From positions 1 to 43,132 of the forward strand of contig JASLVM010000012.1 in the NCBI GenBank assembly GCA_030741355.1: 43,132 nucleotides of DNA, written 5' to 3'. The stretch is from Candidatus Poseidonia sp. Its GTDB lineage: Archaea > Thermoplasmatota > Poseidoniia > Poseidoniales > Poseidoniaceae. The notes below the pieces were generated by a model. It ran no database searches. It had not been told where the DNA came from and was given only the letters and a program-made list of their open reading frames with translations. A program made the position numbers and the translations under genes. How positions within the stretch are numbered: the first letter of the stretch is position 1; each line of letters begins with the position of its first letter. Of this stretch, positions 22,103 through 31,911 are shown piece after piece.

Positions 22103-22822
22103 TCAAACGATGGTGAATCGCTGCTCGTTTTCTTTCCAGTTGAACGGTTTGTATCCAAGCAGGTGGTTGGTATGGCGCATCTTGACGATGCCGAGTTTAC
22201 GGAAGACATCGTCGCCATGGCGCTCCATCACCAGATGCATGACGCCGTCTGAAAGGTAATCTTCAACACCGTATTCGCCAAACTGTTTGTGGTCTTCACC
22301 GGTCATTTCACAGATGAAGAACGAGGTCAGTTCCAACCGTCGAACCGCTTCAAACAAGCGGAAAATTTCGTCGCGGGGATTCTCCATCTTGGTCAAGGTG
22401 AAGAAGGCACCCAAGGAATCGAACACCAGCAATTCGAAGCCAATGGATTGGCGGTATGAGGTCAACTGCTTGATGAGTTGGCCCATCCAGTCCACTCGGT
22501 TGCTCATGCCTTGTTCGTCCAGTTGGACACGAAGATCAGCGAGGTCGATGATGGCGATTCGGTTGCGCACACGAGGGTCGTCAACGTTCATGCCCATGTT
22601 GGCCATGTGAGAACGTAGAGAATCCTTGCCTTGCTCAAGCGTGACGTAAATTCCACTGGTCTCGCCGTAGAGAACGGCGTTGTAGAGCATCGAAAACGTC
22701 AGGCTGGACTTCATGGCACCGGAGGCACCAGCCACAATGCAAATGTGGCCTTGCGGAATGCCGCCCTGCATTTTCTCATCAAGGCCTTCGATGTGGGTTG
22801 GGATTCGTTCCATCTCGGACAT
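22103..22822 (-). CDS. RecA-superfamily (KaiC/RAD55-like) ATPase with non-canonical Walker A
   Basis: THIEGLDEKMQGGIPQGHICIVAGASGAMKSSLTFSMLYNAV...LLVFDSLGAFF: KaiC-like architecture, single domain. Confidence 0.85.
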   Translation of the reverse strand: MSEMERIPTHIEGLDEKMQGGIPQGHICIVAGASGAMKSSLTFSMLYNAVLYGETSGIYVTLEQGKDSLRSHMANMGMNVDDPRVRNRIAIIDLADLRVQLDEQGMSNRVDWMGQLIKQLTSYRQSIGFELLVFDSLGAFFTLTKMENPRDEIFRLFEAVRRLELTSFFICEMTGEDHKQFGEYGVEDYLSDGVMHLVMERHGDDVFRKLGIVKMRHTNHLLGYKPFNWKENEQRFTIV

Positions 22823-23489: not shown

Positions 23490-24068
23490 TCAAAGCAGGG
23501 GTGTTAGGCCCAACTCGTGTTTTTGCATGTCAACCACGACATTTTGTCCGGGAATCATCAACAACTTATCCTCCGAATCCAACGAAAAGACGCTGACTCG
23601 AGCGTGGTCGGCCATGTGCTTGATTTCCCTTCGACACGCCATTTGATGACTTTCCATGTGAACCAGTGAACGCAAATCAACGATCGCCGTATCGCCCTGC
23701 AAGACCCGTTCAAGCATGGCCGTGGTGGGTATCCGTTTCATGACGTCGGGGGCGATGTAGCGAAGTGCCTTGTTGGGGAGTTGAGGTCGGCGTTGCCGCT
23801 CAACACCAAGGTCGTGGAAGGCCTCACCGTCGGGGGTGACTGGACCGTTCCAACCCAACGGCGGCGTTCGCAAGCGACTGAGGTCGGGTTCCTGATCGAC
23901 CGAGAGCGTGGGGGCAGGCGACGGAGATTGGGCGGGCGTTTCCTCGGGTTGCGTCGCCGTCAATGAAACGGGTTGTTGCGCAGCAGCTGCTTGAGGCGGA
24001 GGGGGTGCTGAGTCCGGGGTGTTTCCTTCCGGGTCGGGCAATCCAAAAAAATTCCACAAACTTCCCAT
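23490..24068 (-). CDS. Divergent SepF-like (DUF552-type) cell-division candidate
   Basis: N-terminal amphipathic-like MGSLWNFFGLPDPEG, Pro/Ala/Gln linker, C-terminal TAMLERVLQGDTAIVDLRSLVHMESHQMACRREIKHMADHARVSVFSLDSEDKLLMIPGQNVVVD resembling the SepF core (GDxxIxDL...D..L...PG). Confidence 0.6.
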   Translation of the reverse strand: MGSLWNFFGLPDPEGNTPDSAPPPPQAAAAQQPVSLTATQPEETPAQSPSPAPTLSVDQEPDLSRLRTPPLGWNGPVTPDGEAFHDLGVERQRRPQLPNKALRYIAPDVMKRIPTTAMLERVLQGDTAIVDLRSLVHMESHQMACRREIKHMADHARVSVFSLDSEDKLLMIPGQNVVVDMQKHELGLTPLL

Positions 24069-24079
24069 GTGCCTCTCTC

Positions 24080-27000
24080 TCAGAAGTCCAAGTCGTCAAG
24101 CAACGACTGCAACTGATTGGAGGCAGGGGTTGGTGGAGTTTGTGAAACTATGGGTTGAACGGGGGCCGGTGCAGGCTGATTTGCAGCCAACCATTGCTCT
24201 CCGTAGTAATTCCACTGTTCCATGGTCCATCCAGCGGGAAGTCCTGAGGCAGGGAGCGGTGGACCGGTGTTGACCGCCGGAGCCGTCTCCATGGGTGAAG
24301 CAACCGACGCAGGTGCGGGTTGGGCTGCTTGAACCGGTGCGGCTGGCTCTGAAGCGGGCAGTGGCTCCATCGTCTTCGGGGCGGCGGCAAACTGACTCTG
24401 CTCAAACATGCCATAATCTTCGGATGTGCTTGCGCCTCGCCGGGTGAACAACAGGAACACCACCAAACCGATGATGACCAACGCCAGAAGGCCAATGATG
24501 GCGGTTGTGGTGGTGCCGATGGTGCTGGTGATGCTCTGAAGGATACCCTCCGGTGGTGCTTCTGCGACCAAGACGGTGATTTCGGTTTGGGTTGATTCAC
24601 CGTCGTCGTCGGTCACGGTGAGCGTGAAAATCCACGTCCCTGCTGGTAGGTCTTCAACGGTCCACGTTGGACCCGTGAAATCCACATCGCCGGTCTTTTG
24701 ACCGTCGAGGTCCGTGTCAAGGTGGGAACTGTCCCACTCGTAGACCAGGTTCTCTTTGTCACTCGCTGTTTCGATGGAATCCGTTCCTGAGAGCGTGAGG
24801 TTGTCGCCTTCTGTAAGGTCGTCGAGCACAGAAATTTCGGAGATGATGGCGGTGGGGGGGAGGTTCAACACGCTTACGTTCATGCTCTGGTGAGCCGTAG
24901 CGCCGTCGTCATCCGTCACGGTGACGGTGATCATGCGGACTCCACGTGTGGTCCAAGATGGTTCAATGTTGGTGCCCATCATTTCGCAGTCGTTGTCAAA
25001 AATGCCGTCGCTGTTGGCGTCAATGTTCGCATCAAGGTCCCAACAAACCTCCAGGGTCGCCATGTCCGATGCAGTATCGGACGGAACCACGGTCAAGTTC
25101 AGTAGGTCGCTTTCGAACACCGGTGTGTTGCCGGGCAAGCCCGTGACGCTTGGCGGTACGTTGTGAATCATGACCATCGCCTGTTGAATCTCTGAAGACG
25201 CTCCGTCAGCATCGATGGCACGAACCTGAACGGTGTGCATTCCCGAAGTGTTCCACGAGACCGCTTCGGAGGAGGAAACACCAATGCTGGAGATGGACCA
25301 ATTCTCGTCATCCAGAGAGGGGTGCCATTCGATGATGACCGTGCCTTCGTCGTTGGAGGTGTCGCTCGCGGTTGCCCTCAGGAGCGCCACTTCATCTTCG
25401 TTGAGGTGCCATGTCCCGTTCTCATCGGGAAGAACTTCTTCGCCACCTTTGAACAACGAGGGCGGTGAGAGCGTTGGTGCCACGTTAAGCACGAGCACCT
25501 CGCTGGTGTGTGTCGTGGTTTCGCCGTCGTCATCGGTGGCCACAGCGGTGATGTTCAACGGTCCTTCGAACATGGGTGTGAAGGTGCACGTGGGTTGCGT
25601 CGTACCTTCATCGCAGTCAAGACCGGGCCATGAGACGGTCACTTGTTGGCCGGTAGGTGAGGAGGTATCGATGTCTTCGATGTCAACGGCCTGAATGGTG
25701 ATGGGGGATTCGACCTCAACCGATTCCGGATGAGTCAAATTGAACGTCGGAGCACGGTTCAAGACGACCACATCAACCACCACTTCGTCGGTGTCCAGTT
25801 CCTCATCAACCACCAAGACCTTGACACTCCAGGAGCCGCTGTTGGACCAGTTCCATTGGGTCCAACAGCCGGGTGCCTCGATGACATCAATGAGGCCTGC
25901 TCGTGATTCAATTTCGAAGCGACAATCCACATCGCCGCCGTCGATATCAAAGCTCTGCGTAGCGTTGAGCGTGACGTTTTCAAAGGTGTATTTTCCTTCA
26001 TCAACCACCAAAGAAGCGTTTGGTGCACGGCCGATGAAGATGGAAATTGAGGCATCGTTGTTGCTGCGGTTAGCGTCGGCGGTCACGTTCTCGTCTGGGT
26101 CGACCGTGAACGTGAGTTGAGCCGTTCCAATCTGCATGTCGGCTGGGACCGACCAGTCCACCAAGATCCGCTCTTCGGCGTACGGCGCAATGGTTGGGAG
26201 AGCACTCCGCGACATAACACCGTCCGGTGTTTCAACTTCCATGAAGGTGGAGGGGGCCGTGAGTACGCCTCGGTTTTGGGCCGGCAGAGAGAAACTGAGC
26301 ACATCGCCTGGCAGAGCATTGTAGCCGATGGCGGCACCAAGGGTCGAGGTGGCGTTGTTCCGGGTCCGTTCAACGATCACCGAACTGGCTTGGGCTACGA
26401 GGTCAATACCGACCACGCTCAAATCTTGCACCACGGTGGTGACGCCGACGATATCGGCTATCGGGTCAAACACCACGACCCCGTTACTGGTGTAATCGTC
26501 GCTGGAAGGCGTCTCGTCAACCTCGTCAGAGACGTTGAGCGAGATTTGCGCTTGACCGTTGTTGTCGGTGGTCGGATTGAGGATGGTGTCCGCGATTTCG
26601 TAGCGGAGTTGGAGGTTGGTGTTCTTGATGGGAATGCTGGGGGAACCGGCTACGCTGTATTCAATGGAAATCTGTTCAATCGCATCGGGTAAGGTCGCCG
26701 TGGCAGCGGTGCTCACCTGGATTTGGGTGTTGCGTCCTCCGGGGGATGAGTCAGGGATGACGCTGTTGGAGTCCGCTGGGTTGTAGGTCTTCAAGAGCCA
26801 ATCGATGGTGAATCCAGCCGAATTCGAGATTCGGATCCATGAATTAAAGCGAACCGCAGGACAGTACCAGTTGAATCCAGCACTTACACCGGTGGCGTTC
26901 CACTCGTTGATTTTGTATGAATCGTCGCATCCTCCGTACTTGATGTTGAGGCCATCCTCGGTAGGAATGCCGTCTGCTGTAACTTGCCACGAATTGTTTT

Positions 27001-27667
27001 CAGCGCCGTTGGTGTCGAATTCACTCGGGTCGAAATAATCCGAGGTTCCACTCACGCTGGTTCCGGACATGAAGGGCATGTACCATTGGTCCCCTGTTCG
27101 TATTGGGAAATCGTACTTTTCTTTCGGAGGGGAGTAATAGGTATCGAAGGAAATGGTGGCGAGCTTTTGCGACAAGAACCCCAGATTGAACGGAGCAAAG
27201 TCGACGTCGAGTTCAAAGTCAGAATAGATGACAGCAAGGTCTCGAACACGAATAATGTCTTCACCCGTGTAATCAATGGTGAGTCTTCCGCTCACGCCTT
27301 CGAGCGTGGCTCCACTGTTTCCTGAAGAGAATTCTCCTTCGATTTTCATCTTGTACGCTAAGGTTTGAATCCCATCAACGGTGATGAAGAAGATGTCTTC
27401 AATTTCGTAATCAGTATCTCCAGTTAGCGTGTTTAAACTTGCTGAAACATTGGCTTGCGCAAGGAGCTGGGCGACATCAAACCGAGTTTCATAGGTCCAT
27501 TCATCCCCAACCCTCCAACTGGGTACATCCACGACAGCATTCCCACCCTGAGAATGTTGTTGAGGTGGCGTTTCATCAAGCTGAATCGACGATTCTACAA
27601 CGCCCATGCCCAATGAGGTGAGGAAGAGGGCGACGAGGAAGGCGGCTTGGCATGTCCGTCCGAACAT
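24080..27667 (-). CDS. Giant surface protein (1195 aa): signal peptide, large N-terminal domain, CARDB-like and PKD-like repeats, C-terminal TM, cytoplasmic tail
   Basis: MFGRTCQAAFLVALFLTSLGMGVVESS signal; PKD-like VTDDDGE... repeats; TM TTTAIIGLLALVIIGLVVFLLF; tail GPPLPASGLPAGWTMEQWNYYGEQWLAANQ. Confidence 0.88.
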   Translation of the reverse strand: MFGRTCQAAFLVALFLTSLGMGVVESSIQLDETPPQQHSQGGNAVVDVPSWRVGDEWTYETRFDVAQLLAQANVSASLNTLTGDTDYEIEDIFFITVDGIQTLAYKMKIEGEFSSGNSGATLEGVSGRLTIDYTGEDIIRVRDLAVIYSDFELDVDFAPFNLGFLSQKLATISFDTYYSPPKEKYDFPIRTGDQWYMPFMSGTSVSGTSDYFDPSEFDTNGAENNSWQVTADGIPTEDGLNIKYGGCDDSYKINEWNATGVSAGFNWYCPAVRFNSWIRISNSAGFTIDWLLKTYNPADSNSVIPDSSPGGRNTQIQVSTAATATLPDAIEQISIEYSVAGSPSIPIKNTNLQLRYEIADTILNPTTDNNGQAQISLNVSDEVDETPSSDDYTSNGVVVFDPIADIVGVTTVVQDLSVVGIDLVAQASSVIVERTRNNATSTLGAAIGYNALPGDVLSFSLPAQNRGVLTAPSTFMEVETPDGVMSRSALPTIAPYAEERILVDWSVPADMQIGTAQLTFTVDPDENVTADANRSNNDASISIFIGRAPNASLVVDEGKYTFENVTLNATQSFDIDGGDVDCRFEIESRAGLIDVIEAPGCWTQWNWSNSGSWSVKVLVVDEELDTDEVVVDVVVLNRAPTFNLTHPESVEVESPITIQAVDIEDIDTSSPTGQQVTVSWPGLDCDEGTTQPTCTFTPMFEGPLNITAVATDDDGETTTHTSEVLVLNVAPTLSPPSLFKGGEEVLPDENGTWHLNEDEVALLRATASDTSNDEGTVIIEWHPSLDDENWSISSIGVSSSEAVSWNTSGMHTVQVRAIDADGASSEIQQAMVMIHNVPPSVTGLPGNTPVFESDLLNLTVVPSDTASDMATLEVCWDLDANIDANSDGIFDNDCEMMGTNIEPSWTTRGVRMITVTVTDDDGATAHQSMNVSVLNLPPTAIISEISVLDDLTEGDNLTLSGTDSIETASDKENLVYEWDSSHLDTDLDGQKTGDVDFTGPTWTVEDLPAGTWIFTLTVTDDDGESTQTEITVLVAEAPPEGILQSITSTIGTTTTAIIGLLALVIIGLVVFLLFTRRGASTSEDYGMFEQSQFAAAPKTMEPLPASEPAAPVQAAQPAPASVASPMETAPAVNTGPPLPASGLPAGWTMEQWNYYGEQWLAANQPAPAPVQPIVSQTPPTPASNQLQSLLDDLDF

Positions 27668-27718: not shown

Positions 27719-30700
27719 TCATCCTTGTGAATCAAGCCACTGTTGGCCGTAGTGTTCCCATTGCTCCATGCTCCATCCTTCGGGGAGTCCACTCTCGGGG
27801 AGCGGTGGTCCAACAGCACCTGCTGAGGGCGCGTTTTGCATGGCTTGTTGGAACAAATAATCGGGCGGAGGGCCTTCGGGTTGTTTTTGACGCAGGCGTT
27901 CCTCTCGGTCCGTGAATAAATCTCCTGTCAAGGCATCGGACACCTCGTCCCACACGCTTTCGTTGGCCTCAACACGATGGCGTCGTCGTGCGAACAACAC
28001 CACGAGCAGCAACATCAAGCCCAGAAGGCCGAGTTGGGCGAGGGGGTTGGCCTCTTCGCCAACCAAAGCAGCTCCGATGTTCTCGATGGGGGTGCGGTCT
28101 GCAGGCAGAACGGCGAAGGTGATCACCTTCGTTCCAGGACGCTCAGGGTCCTCATCCCAAGCCATGACTTTCACGGATTGGAGTCCATCGCGCTTGAAGG
28201 TGTAGGTCACGGTCTTTCCAATCAAGTCGGCGTCGTTGTCGGGAATGCCGTCCTCATTGCTGTCGTCGTTGATATCGATGTCCCATGCTACGGTGAGATC
28301 ATTCACATCGTTCAGTGCGTCGAGTGTGCTGCTGGCATCAAGCAAGCACGCTTCGTAGGCCATGCAGGAAAACGGTGCCGTACGGACGATGGGGGGCGTG
28401 TTGAGCACAAGGACTTCGAGCACTTCGCTGGTGTGGGCGCCGTCGTTGTCGGTAACGTGGTACACGAGTTTGTGGGTGCCGCTTCGATTCCAGGAGATGG
28501 TCAGGTTATTTCCGATGACATCGCAATCGTCGTCAGCGCTGCCGAAATCATCCGAATCCATGCTGGGGTCGATGTCCCAGCAACGCACGAGGGTGTCGAC
28601 GTCCGACGGCGTGTCGGTTGATGAGCCAGACACTCGGATGCTCTGCCCTTCTGCCACAGGGAGCACGGGAGCAATCGGTTCAATGGTTGGCGGTACGTTC
28701 TGCACGCTCACCCACCGTTCCTCAATTCCACTCGTAGCGCCTTCGGAGTCCGTGACTTCGAGTCGCATTTTGTGGAGTCCGGCCTCCAACCAAACCATCT
28801 CGTATTCGGAGGTGCGTCCATCAAAGACACGAATCAGTGAGGGTTGTGCATCGTCAGGCCACCACGTATGCGTCAAGTCGTTGATGTCGTCCACGGAATC
28901 TTGGGCTTGGCCTTTGACCGTGACCGTCTGGTCCTCCTCGACGTGCCATGTGTCTTGAGCGTCCATGGTGATGGGGCCCTCATCGCCGAGCATCTGTACG
29001 TTGAGGCTGTGCGGCCTGATGTTGGTGAATTTGACGTCAAAGGTTGCTGATGCCACCGCACCGTCATCATCGGTGCCGATAGCGGTGAAGGTTTTCCAGC
29101 CCTCGGTGGTTGAGGTCGTGGTGCACACTCGAGTGTAGTAGCCTTCCTTGCAGTTGGCCCCCGGCCAGTAGATGTCGACCACGCCCGGCCAAACCTTCTC
29201 TGAATCCGAATCGTTGGCGTACGCATAGAGCGTGATGGGATATTCGACCTTGGCTTCGGTTCGTTGACTTCGCACCTCTATTTCCGGGTCCCGGTTTTGG
29301 ACGGTGACGTTGAGCACCATCACCGTCTCATCCCGTTCTTCGTCCTCGACGGTGATCTCAACCGGGTAAACGCCATCGTCAATCCAAGTGTATTCAAGGA
29401 GGCAGGTTGGAGATACAATTCGTTCGTAATCCCACGTTCTCGTACCGTCGTCAAAGGGCACGTAAAATTCGCATGAAACATTGCCTCCATCTTCGTCGTA
29501 ACTCGCACTGGCGTTGATGAGAATGGTCTCTTGGGTCAGGCCGATGGGTTCGGGAGCCACCGGGGTCGGCAATCGGCCAACGAACAATTCAATGCTCCCG
29601 ATGTTGTTTTGGAAGTTGGCATCGGCGGCGTTGAGTTGCCCCGTGTCAGCCTCCCATTGAATCTGGAGTGGCCCGATACCGGTGCTGTTGGGCACCTCCC
29701 AAGTCTGGTACATCTTGTAGGCTTGGTAGGTCTCGAGAGGGGGGAGTTCCTCGGTGATGGCCACTCCGTCAGGCATGGTCAGTCGGGCATCGGTCGTGCT
29801 GGATGTGGTGATGCCTCGGTTGTTGAAGGCGACTTCAATGTCGAGTCTGTCGCCGGGCAAGACGTTGTAGCCCGAGAGTGCGTTGAGTTGAGACACGGTG
29901 CAAACATCACCAATGCAGCGTTCGCGCAGGATGACGGCCGCTTCTTCATCGGCAAAAACGTCCAAACCCACGAGGTATTCGTCGAGGGTGACGGTGGCCG
30001 CACCGACCTTGTTTCCTGCCTTGGCGACAAGGCCATGGCTGGCGTAGTCCAGCTGCGTGGCGGAGGAATCCAACGCATCGCCGACGTCGACCACGGCCCA
30101 AGCACTGCCGTTCGCCGCCGTGGTCAGACTCGTCACGAAACCTTCCACTTCGTGGTGGAGTTCAAGTTGCAAACCGGCCGTGTTGGAAAAACACGAGGAC
30201 GATGCATTCACCCAAACCTGCATCGGTGTGTCCAAGGCGGTGATGGAACGTTCCGGAACCACCTCCAAGCAGTCTGACCGGGTGCCGGGGTTGGTGTAAG
30301 GCTCAACTCCTGTGGCGCCAACAGGATCGTATCGCTTGAGTTTGAAATCGATGACCAAGCCAATGTCATCGGCGGTATGGAGCCATGCATAATTGCGCAC
30401 TTCAGGACAATACCATCGGTAGCCTTCAGAAACTCCGTTGCTGTTGAACGAGGTCATCTCGTAGGATTCGTTGCAACCGCCGTAATCGATGCTCTGTCCG
30501 ACGTCATTGGTGGGTTTCCCCACATCGGTCACGACCCAAGTGGTGGTGTTGGTATCGGTCTCGGGGGCTGGAAACGGCGTGATGTAATCGCTTTGGCCAG
30601 ACCATTGCGAGTAGGATGTCGTGGTGGTGGTCCATCGCTCGTCGGTGCGGAGGGGGAAGTCGTAATTTTCGTTGACGGGAGAATACGTGGTGGTGATGGT

Positions 30701-31240
30701 GATGTCGCCGAGAATTTGTTCGAGGAAGGAGATGCCGCTCGGTACGAAGCGAATGTACATGTCAAGCTCGCTTCGAATGGGAGAAAGGTCGCTTACACGA
30801 AGGTATTCGGTTTGGGTGAATTGAATGTAGACGTTGCCGGAGAAACCCTCCAACGACACGCCGGATTTGTCAAAATTAGCCGAAGTTCGAAGGGTGTAGG
30901 CCAGCACCGACATGTTGTCGACGTTCTGGGTTGAGATGCCCGTGACTTCCGTCGTGGTGTCACCTTGTATTTCGCCGACCGTCGCATCCACGCCTGTGTC
31001 CGTGACCAAGACGGTTGGATCGAAGGTTCCGGCGTATATCCAACGGTCGCCAATGCGCCATGAGGGGACATCGGAAACGCCCGGGTCTCCAGCCACGGTG
31101 CGGTGGATAGAGGGTTCCACAAGACGGTCGTGGTGCACAAGCGGCACCATGTTCACCAGCAGCAGCACCACCAAGGCGACGGGGATGGTGCGGCGCAAAC
31201 GTACCTCTCCCATGGTCAAGCCACGGGGAAGGGAGGACAT
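27719..31240 (-). CDS. Giant surface protein, tandem paralog of the preceding gene
   Basis: Same N-terminal pattern (DVPSWRIGDRWIYAGTFDP... vs DVPSWRVGDEWTYETRFDV...; YGGCNESYEM vs YGGCDDSYKI; RWYCPEVR vs NWYCPAVR), PKD/CARDB-like modules, TM LGLLGLMLLLVVLFARRRH, tail GPPLPESGLPEGWSMEQWEHYGQQWLDSQG*. Confidence 0.88.
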   Translation of the reverse strand: MSSLPRGLTMGEVRLRRTIPVALVVLLLVNMVPLVHHDRLVEPSIHRTVAGDPGVSDVPSWRIGDRWIYAGTFDPTVLVTDTGVDATVGEIQGDTTTEVTGISTQNVDNMSVLAYTLRTSANFDKSGVSLEGFSGNVYIQFTQTEYLRVSDLSPIRSELDMYIRFVPSGISFLEQILGDITITTTYSPVNENYDFPLRTDERWTTTTTSYSQWSGQSDYITPFPAPETDTNTTTWVVTDVGKPTNDVGQSIDYGGCNESYEMTSFNSNGVSEGYRWYCPEVRNYAWLHTADDIGLVIDFKLKRYDPVGATGVEPYTNPGTRSDCLEVVPERSITALDTPMQVWVNASSSCFSNTAGLQLELHHEVEGFVTSLTTAANGSAWAVVDVGDALDSSATQLDYASHGLVAKAGNKVGAATVTLDEYLVGLDVFADEEAAVILRERCIGDVCTVSQLNALSGYNVLPGDRLDIEVAFNNRGITTSSTTDARLTMPDGVAITEELPPLETYQAYKMYQTWEVPNSTGIGPLQIQWEADTGQLNAADANFQNNIGSIELFVGRLPTPVAPEPIGLTQETILINASASYDEDGGNVSCEFYVPFDDGTRTWDYERIVSPTCLLEYTWIDDGVYPVEITVEDEERDETVMVLNVTVQNRDPEIEVRSQRTEAKVEYPITLYAYANDSDSEKVWPGVVDIYWPGANCKEGYYTRVCTTTSTTEGWKTFTAIGTDDDGAVASATFDVKFTNIRPHSLNVQMLGDEGPITMDAQDTWHVEEDQTVTVKGQAQDSVDDINDLTHTWWPDDAQPSLIRVFDGRTSEYEMVWLEAGLHKMRLEVTDSEGATSGIEERWVSVQNVPPTIEPIAPVLPVAEGQSIRVSGSSTDTPSDVDTLVRCWDIDPSMDSDDFGSADDDCDVIGNNLTISWNRSGTHKLVYHVTDNDGAHTSEVLEVLVLNTPPIVRTAPFSCMAYEACLLDASSTLDALNDVNDLTVAWDIDINDDSNEDGIPDNDADLIGKTVTYTFKRDGLQSVKVMAWDEDPERPGTKVITFAVLPADRTPIENIGAALVGEEANPLAQLGLLGLMLLLVVLFARRRHRVEANESVWDEVSDALTGDLFTDREERLRQKQPEGPPPDYLFQQAMQNAPSAGAVGPPLPESGLPEGWSMEQWEHYGQQWLDSQG

Positions 31241-31276
31241 CAAGACTTCTCCTCCAGCCGTTTGGCCAGAGCGTGC

Positions 31277-31891
31277 TCAAAGAAGGTCAGCCAGTTCGTC
31301 TTTGATGATTTCAACGGCTTCGAGAATCTCGTCCTTGTGTCGGGCACCGGTGATGACCATCTTTCCGGAACCGAAGATGAGGCAGACGACCTTCGGGTCG
31401 TCAAGTCGGTAGATGAGGCCGGGGAACTGCTCTGGCTCGTATTCCACCTTGTCAAAGGGCAAGTGGAAGGTCAAGTGGTTGAGGTTGAGTTTGCGAGGGA
31501 CACCGGCTTGAGGCTCGCCGGTGAACTTGTCGAGACCGTCGTAGTCCTCTGGGTAGTGAAGAGCGTAGGTGGCGACCATGTTTTGGACTTCGATGGTGAC
31601 GTCCTTCAGGTCCCAGGTCTCAATCCCAGCAGCTCGCAAGTCTTTGATCATGCGGTCGATACCGGTGTGGATGTTGTCTTCGTCCTTACCGCCGGTGCAG
31701 ACAGCGCGGCCGGAGCGGAACATGAGGATGGCGAGTTTTGGCTCGGTGACTCGGTAGACGACACCAGGGAATTGCTCGGGTTCGTACTCACAGTTGAGTT
31801 GAATAGCGATATCGGGGAGGTCAAGTTCTTCGGCAACACGAGTGCTGGCGACGACGTTCACAACAGTTAGGCGTTCTTCATCAGTGGTCAT
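31277..31891 (-). CDS. tbp: TATA-box binding protein
   Basis: Two direct repeats, each with EYEPEQFPGxxYR; LTVVNVVAS / IEVQNMVAT; SGRAVCTGGK / SGKMVITGAR. ATG at 31891 preferred over TTG at 31903. Confidence 0.95.
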   Translation of the reverse strand: MTTDEERLTVVNVVASTRVAEELDLPDIAIQLNCEYEPEQFPGVVYRVTEPKLAILMFRSGRAVCTGGKDEDNIHTGIDRMIKDLRAAGIETWDLKDVTIEVQNMVATYALHYPEDYDGLDKFTGEPQAGVPRKLNLNHLTFHLPFDKVEYEPEQFPGLIYRLDDPKVVCLIFGSGKMVITGARHKDEILEAVEIIKDELADLL

Positions 31892-31911
31892 ATAAAGGGC
31901 CAATGACCTTT

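Follow-up and report, generated by a model that had tools for sequence, protein, structure and literature searches.

A conserved Trp-rich tail of unrelated Poseidoniales surface proteins as a candidate cytoplasmic docking mini-domain

Unrelated surface proteins of the Poseidoniales, which are uncultured and the most abundant archaea in the plankton of the surface ocean (PMC6461757), carry behind a predicted membrane helix a tail with the consensus GPPLPxxGLPxGW(T/S)MEQWxxYGxQWL, hereafter the GW motif. We interpret this tail, with a probability of about 0.6, as a so far undescribed mini-domain that docks, on the cytoplasmic side, to a partner shared by the carriers and not yet identified. The interpretation starts from the observed sequence, predicted topology, distribution, constraint, ectodomain diversity, and predicted helix of the tail, and all results derive from sequences of uncultured organisms, mostly MAGs.

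The window, i.e., the whole stretch of 43,132 nucleotides that was analyzed, contains two copies of the motif in neighboring genes:

27719..31243, minus strand: P0002, 1174 aa, PKD ectodomain, one C-terminal transmembrane helix
27989..28042, minus strand: predicted membrane helix of P0002, residues 1068–1085, followed by RRR
27725..27811, minus strand: GW tail motif, second copy, P0002 residues 1145–1173, reading GPPLPESGLPEGWSMEQWEHYGQQWLDSQG
24080..27667, minus strand: P0001, 1195-aa type I surface protein with a PKD/CARDB-like ectodomain, one C-terminal transmembrane helix, and a predicted cytoplasmic tail
24446..24502, minus strand: predicted membrane helix of P0001, residues 1056–1074, followed by TRR (positive-inside)
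24179..24265, minus strand: GW tail motif, first copy, P0001 residues 1135–1163, reading GPPLPASGLPAGWTMEQWNYYGEQWLAAN
24083..24112, minus strand: conserved tail peptide LQSLLDDLDF, extreme C-terminus of the P0001 family
23490..24068, minus strand: P0004, 192-aa SepF-fold protein, directly downstream of P0001

P0001 and P0002 are tandem minus-strand paralogs (33% identity), both composed of a PKD-type exported ectodomain, a single hydrophobic helix towards the C-terminus, and a linker rich in Pro and Ala. Both copies quoted in an earlier sequence-only reading agree letter for letter with those in P0001 and P0002; the first had been placed a few bases off, at 24181–24270 instead of 24179–24265. 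In P0002 a single residue stands between the motif and the stop. In P0001, by correction, the motif is not the end of the protein, as a variable linker and then a second conserved tip, LQSLLDDLDF, come after it. The pattern LxxLLDDLD[FLI] at the C-terminus of the P0001 family (24083–24112, minus strand) resembles acidic-hydrophobic recruitment tips. The gene group is flanked downstream by a KaiC-like ATPase (22103–22822, minus strand) and upstream by TBP (31277–31903, minus strand), and similar neighbors recur at the loci of relatives.

A search with a motif model retrieved eight strong copies from the home genome, at E values of 1e-15 to 1e-18 per genome, six of them beyond the two in the window, plus weaker ones; judged from these E values, the eight copies are not due to chance. 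In a class-wide search, the motif was present in 271 of 272 Poseidoniales genomes from two families, with 1–12 copies each. About ten GW-tailed giant surface proteins per genome are found in one family, ten strong copies in the complete genome G060, and a single strong copy only in several genomes. None of the 21 sister-order genomes has the motif, nor has any of the 263 phylum genomes outside Poseidoniales, and the 127 positive genomes in a phylum-wide search all lie within this order. The titles of motif-bearing GTDB loci are Poseidoniales, Poseidoniaceae, Thalassarchaeaceae, Marine Group II, Poseidonia, and unclassified Euryarchaeota; the family names Poseidoniaceae (f1), Thalassarchaeaceae (f2), and Marine Group III (f3) were assigned by inference. 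Viral spread was rejected, as the viral contigs scanned contained no relative.

Among 52 orthologs of P0001, the mean identity was 0.83 in the motif, 0.26 in the preceding linker, 0.48 at the end of the ectodomain, and 0.74 in the C-terminal tip, and among 13 orthologs of P0002, it was 0.83 in the motif versus 0.41 in the linker, in keeping with the initial impression of a constrained segment amid poorly conserved linkers. The P0001 orthologs were picked with a pattern including part of the motif, so that the value for the motif is partly circular. Positions P5, G8, L9, and P10, which lie outside the search pattern, are 99–100% conserved in 150 distinct copies, and the non-hydrophobic positions G8, P10, Q17, and G22 are strictly identical. 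The location of both window copies in tandem paralogs might suggest recent duplication or gene conversion without functional constraint. However, at residues shared among the eight home-genome copies (67% amino-acid identity), four-fold degenerate sites agree in only 76 of 257 comparisons (29.6%; base-composition expectation, 28.5%). Since these sites are at random identity, the likeness of the motif is old and has been kept by protein-level selection. The saturated silent sites rule out recent duplicates, for which the unrelated ectodomains and the order-wide occurrence also leave practically no room. Confinement to two recent duplicates, which would have refuted the sequence-only reading, is excluded, and the motif occurs on several unrelated ectodomain families.

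Within the home genome, P0001 and P0002 are the sole full-length homologous pair of carriers, and comparison of the ectodomains detected no mutual likeness among the other carriers (C48, C116, C71, C127, C56, and C36); in G060, one further carrier pair has a common local stretch. Among the carriers are a CARDB-containing subtilase, proteins with arrays of PKD or of NPCBM/Ig-like domains, and one that is propeller-like; others have no Pfam match. The window also encodes P0003 (15318–20267, plus strand), an S8 subtilase surface protein whose predicted cytoplasmic tail ends instead in a zinc-ribbon-like CPSC...CPVC. This ending was rejected as a second shared tail class, because only its own copy was retrieved (E > 0.07 for the rest of the genome).

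Of 201 distinct ORFs bearing the motif, 195 have enough upstream sequence for analysis of the topology. In all 195, a hydrophobic 19-mer ends 28–150 residues (median, 71) before the motif, and no hydrophobic helix follows it; the matches are thus consistently C-terminal to a predicted membrane helix, with none in a non-membrane context. In these ORFs, Lys and Arg together average 2.7 per ten residues behind the helix versus 0.12 ahead of it and, because of the positive-inside rule, the tail is placed on the cytoplasmic side. Helix and topology were called by hydropathy and this rule, with neither a trained predictor nor an experiment, and the cytoplasmic location in vivo is inferred. As lineage-specific C-terminal elements on unrelated exported proteins, the GW tails are comparable to the PGF-CTERM/archaeosortase, PEP-CTERM, LPXTG, and MYXO-CTERM systems. 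The signatures of those sorting signals, however, stand before or at the terminal helix with a short basic end, whereas the GW motif lies 28–150 residues behind the helix, on the predicted inner side. This spacing, with no NCBIfam model scoring above its cut-off, led us to reject a signal of the PGF-CTERM/archaeosortase type. In most carriers the motif is terminal or near-terminal and the carriers are very long exported proteins, as would suit a biogenesis or turnover signal by which a cytosolic factor (an export-completion check, a chaperone, or a protease) licenses or removes giant membrane proteins. Yet 30–100 residues extend beyond the motif in the P0001 family, unlike a C-terminal degron, and tails of another kind are present on further giant exported proteins, e.g., on the subtilase P0003, making such a role distinctly unlikely.

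AlphaFold modeling of the 41-residue P0002 tail as a single chain, with an alignment of 50 diverse rows, gave a Pro-rich segment in extended conformation and a helix spanning residues 26–40, with pLDDT of 83–90 by ten-residue block for residues 11–40. The segment alone is thus predicted with confidence as an extended-plus-helix unit, although a confident 30-residue model is no proof of autonomous folding. Packing of the Pro segment on the aromatic helix, inferred from the predicted secondary structure alone, would explain P2 and P5 together with W18, Y21, and W25. In PP-fold and Trp-cage mini-proteins, a polyproline segment lies beside an aromatic helix; the GW tail is similar to them only by predicted secondary structure, and a PDB fold search with the tail gave no match. 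The predicted helix is Trp/Tyr-rich and amphipathic (hydrophobic moment, 0.35–0.47), properties that would also suit a peripheral membrane-binding helix on the inner leaflet. The motif is, however, neutral to acidic throughout with almost no basic residues, for which reason a protein is favored over an anionic membrane as the target, and the strict identity of the non-hydrophobic G8, P10, Q17, and G22 likewise makes membrane binding very improbable. WW domains have two Trp residues ~20–23 apart and form a three-stranded sheet. Among the WW entries only the LPxGW start matches, and this identity was rejected because the tail is modeled as an extended chain plus helix without strands. Neither the tails nor the tail regions of the whole proteins scored above the curated cut-offs of Pfam-A and NCBIfam. 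In the open literature (subscription papers being outside the scope), the motif strings retrieved nothing relevant and the papers on Poseidoniales that were searched contain no description of it. Altogether, the order-wide spread, the unrelated ectodomains, the topology, and the absence of a library-model match support the original suggestion of an undescribed cytoplasmic mini-domain on surface proteins.

A shared cytosolic reader is proposed because a strict unit occurs on unrelated exported proteins, always behind a helix and on a drifting leash. Each carrier would be exported by its signal peptide, its large ectodomain folding outside the cell, and anchored through a single membrane helix towards the C-terminus. 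Inside the cell, a flexible leash of ~30–150 residues, rich in Pro and Ala, would then present an identical small plug, consisting of the extended proline-containing chain GPPLPxxGLP beside or leading into the α-helix T-MEQWxxYGxQWL. A shared cytosolic partner may read this plug, so that unrelated surface proteins (protease, PKD adhesin-like, Ig-like, and propeller) would be retained or gathered at common sites. No partner has been identified, and a single common partner, the clustering or retention outcome, and any link to cell division are inferred. It is also conceivable that no adaptor is involved and that the carriers associate directly through their aromatic helices, since the amphipathic helix is rich in Trp and Tyr, one genome has the motif on many surface proteins, and other tails contain diverged variants in tandem. 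The invariant Pro-rich half and the conserved residues all around the helix nevertheless exceed the needs of simple helix contact, and several genomes have a single strong copy, so that we regard self-association as unlikely. Sorting, clustering, and docking cannot be distinguished here, and the confidence figures of the docking reading and its rivals overlap; the interpretation that needs the fewest assumptions is docking to a shared partner.

A candidate partner is encoded next to P0001. P0004 begins with the near-invariant MxxLWxFFGLPDP, followed by a Pro-rich linker, an FHDL element, and a domain at the C-terminus. Its N-terminus, MGSLWNFFGLPDPE, is amphipathic and membrane-anchor-like by sequence, and the AlphaFold model shows no helix there. 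The top Foldseek matches of the model are SepF structures (PDB IDs: 3zie, 3zih, 3zig, 6scp, and 7al1; probability, 0.91–1.00; target TM-score, 0.63–0.77), with a best E value of only 0.018. When its profile was compared with that of the canonical Poseidoniales SepF, an E value of 1.2e-4 and an hhalign probability of 55% were obtained, with [FY]HDLG in common. On the basis of this model, P0004 meets the criterion of the SepF core fold. P0004 itself has no Pfam match, and its best family member (E value, 0.051) does not reach the cut-off of Pfam SepF. The canonical SepF is encoded elsewhere, by its own gene, in 38 of the 39 Poseidoniales genomes sampled; P0004 represents a second SepF-like family of the order, always downstream of a P0001 homolog in the opened loci.

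Binding of the GW tail to P0004 would connect the surface proteins with the FtsZ/SepF machinery of division or of the cortex. The SepF fold is consistent with such a role, as are the recurring gene order P0002–P0001–P0004 and the pairing of a P0001 homolog with P0004 in ~52 loci plus every further locus opened in both families, and this pairing hints at an envelope or division link. The distribution of P0004 (97 of 98 Poseidoniales genomes and 0 of 21 sister-order genomes) also equals that of the motif, but co-distribution inside one order is weak evidence. In several Thalassarchaeaceae loci (L251–L254 and L262), moreover, the P0001-like protein encoded just ahead of the SepF-like gene lacks the GW motif and ends in an acidic stretch, e.g., DPEDIEALFEE. 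The motif has thus been lost in some homologs and is not always needed for P0001, and these neighbors keep P0004, which weakens the case for it as the ligand. P0004 is probably not an obligate ligand, and we see only a small chance that the GW tail binds it. Because the neighbors without the motif keep the acidic-hydrophobic end, this C-terminal tip is a likelier partner of P0004 than the GW motif, in the absence of binding data. A GID motif has been described for archaeal FtsZ (PMC8178401). The FtsZ proteins of Poseidoniales (L156–L185) end in RxxxxFVN or NNLDFHRFE, with no obvious GID motif at these loci, and LLDDLDF was rejected as a mimic of the FtsZ tail for want of direct likeness to these ends.

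Weaker relatives are found at the equivalent position of further giant surface proteins as tandem units, such as VPDGWTLEDYQRWLEGPLPEGWKTEQWVAYVEE in C41, VPGWTAEMVEQYLNQGWTMDQLATYYQEQ in C37, and FPQWTQEEIQGYFDQGWNIESLQDWVNNQ in C83, and the C37 tail has GWTM(E/D)Q in common with the main motif. Related-looking two-helix tails, FPxWTxExIQxYxDQGWTxEQLxxYY, form the C-termini of further giant surface proteins of 1600–2000 aa (L238, L263–L285, and L288–L292). Homology between the two-helix and GW types is not proven. One of these diverged tails weakly resembles the helical UBA/CUE mini-domains (Pfam CUE; E value, 0.099; 12.8 bits versus a cut-off of 21.1), and a CUE/UBA identity was rejected on this sub-threshold score; the main GW motif has no UBA/CUE match. 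Another tail element, ANSMYGG, belongs to the C116 family of proteins in one of the two archaeal families, whereas in the second it is borne by relatives of C48. The pattern ANSMYGG..[DE]IF (tails of L010, L222, L232, L233, and L286) thus stands on unrelated ectodomains in both families, which, as far as the sequences allow, is a sign that tail modules may be swapped between ectodomains. In a wider and speculative scheme, possible though rather unlikely as a whole, an order-specific "tail code" of Trp-rich cytoplasmic mini-domains (GW and two-helix) would connect roughly twelve giant surface proteins from within the cell to one cortical scaffold, in which the SepF-fold P0004 takes part, linking envelope architecture to FtsZ/SepF.

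The chemoreceptor NWETF pentapeptide, the FtsZ C-terminal peptide, and the SSB tip are C-terminal recruitment peptides on flexible leashes. Like these, the GW tail is a short conserved end of a variable linker, occurs on several proteins or partners, and would have a cytosolic reader; it differs in its length of ~28 residues, its folded-looking Pro-plus-helix organization, and its giant carriers with unrelated ectodomains, and has no sequence relation to them. Eukaryotic type I receptors bear cytoplasmic-tail docking motifs such as ankyrin, ERM, and PDZ ligands, with the same location in the protein and a common inner tail on unrelated ectodomains, whereas the GW tail is archaeal, longer, more strictly conserved, and not homologous. 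The leashed cytoplasmic docking element is therefore known as a kind; what is new, as far as we have found, is the GW family, together with its use throughout the order and the archaeal setting. If the docking reading is true, a strict inner tail common to a protease, adhesin-like proteins, and other surface proteins would be one of the few prokaryotic examples in which unrelated ectodomains rely on the same cytoplasmic docking module. A synthetic 29-residue GW tail may be used as bait for the partner, and the motif provides a sequence label for major Poseidoniales surface proteins in any metagenome.
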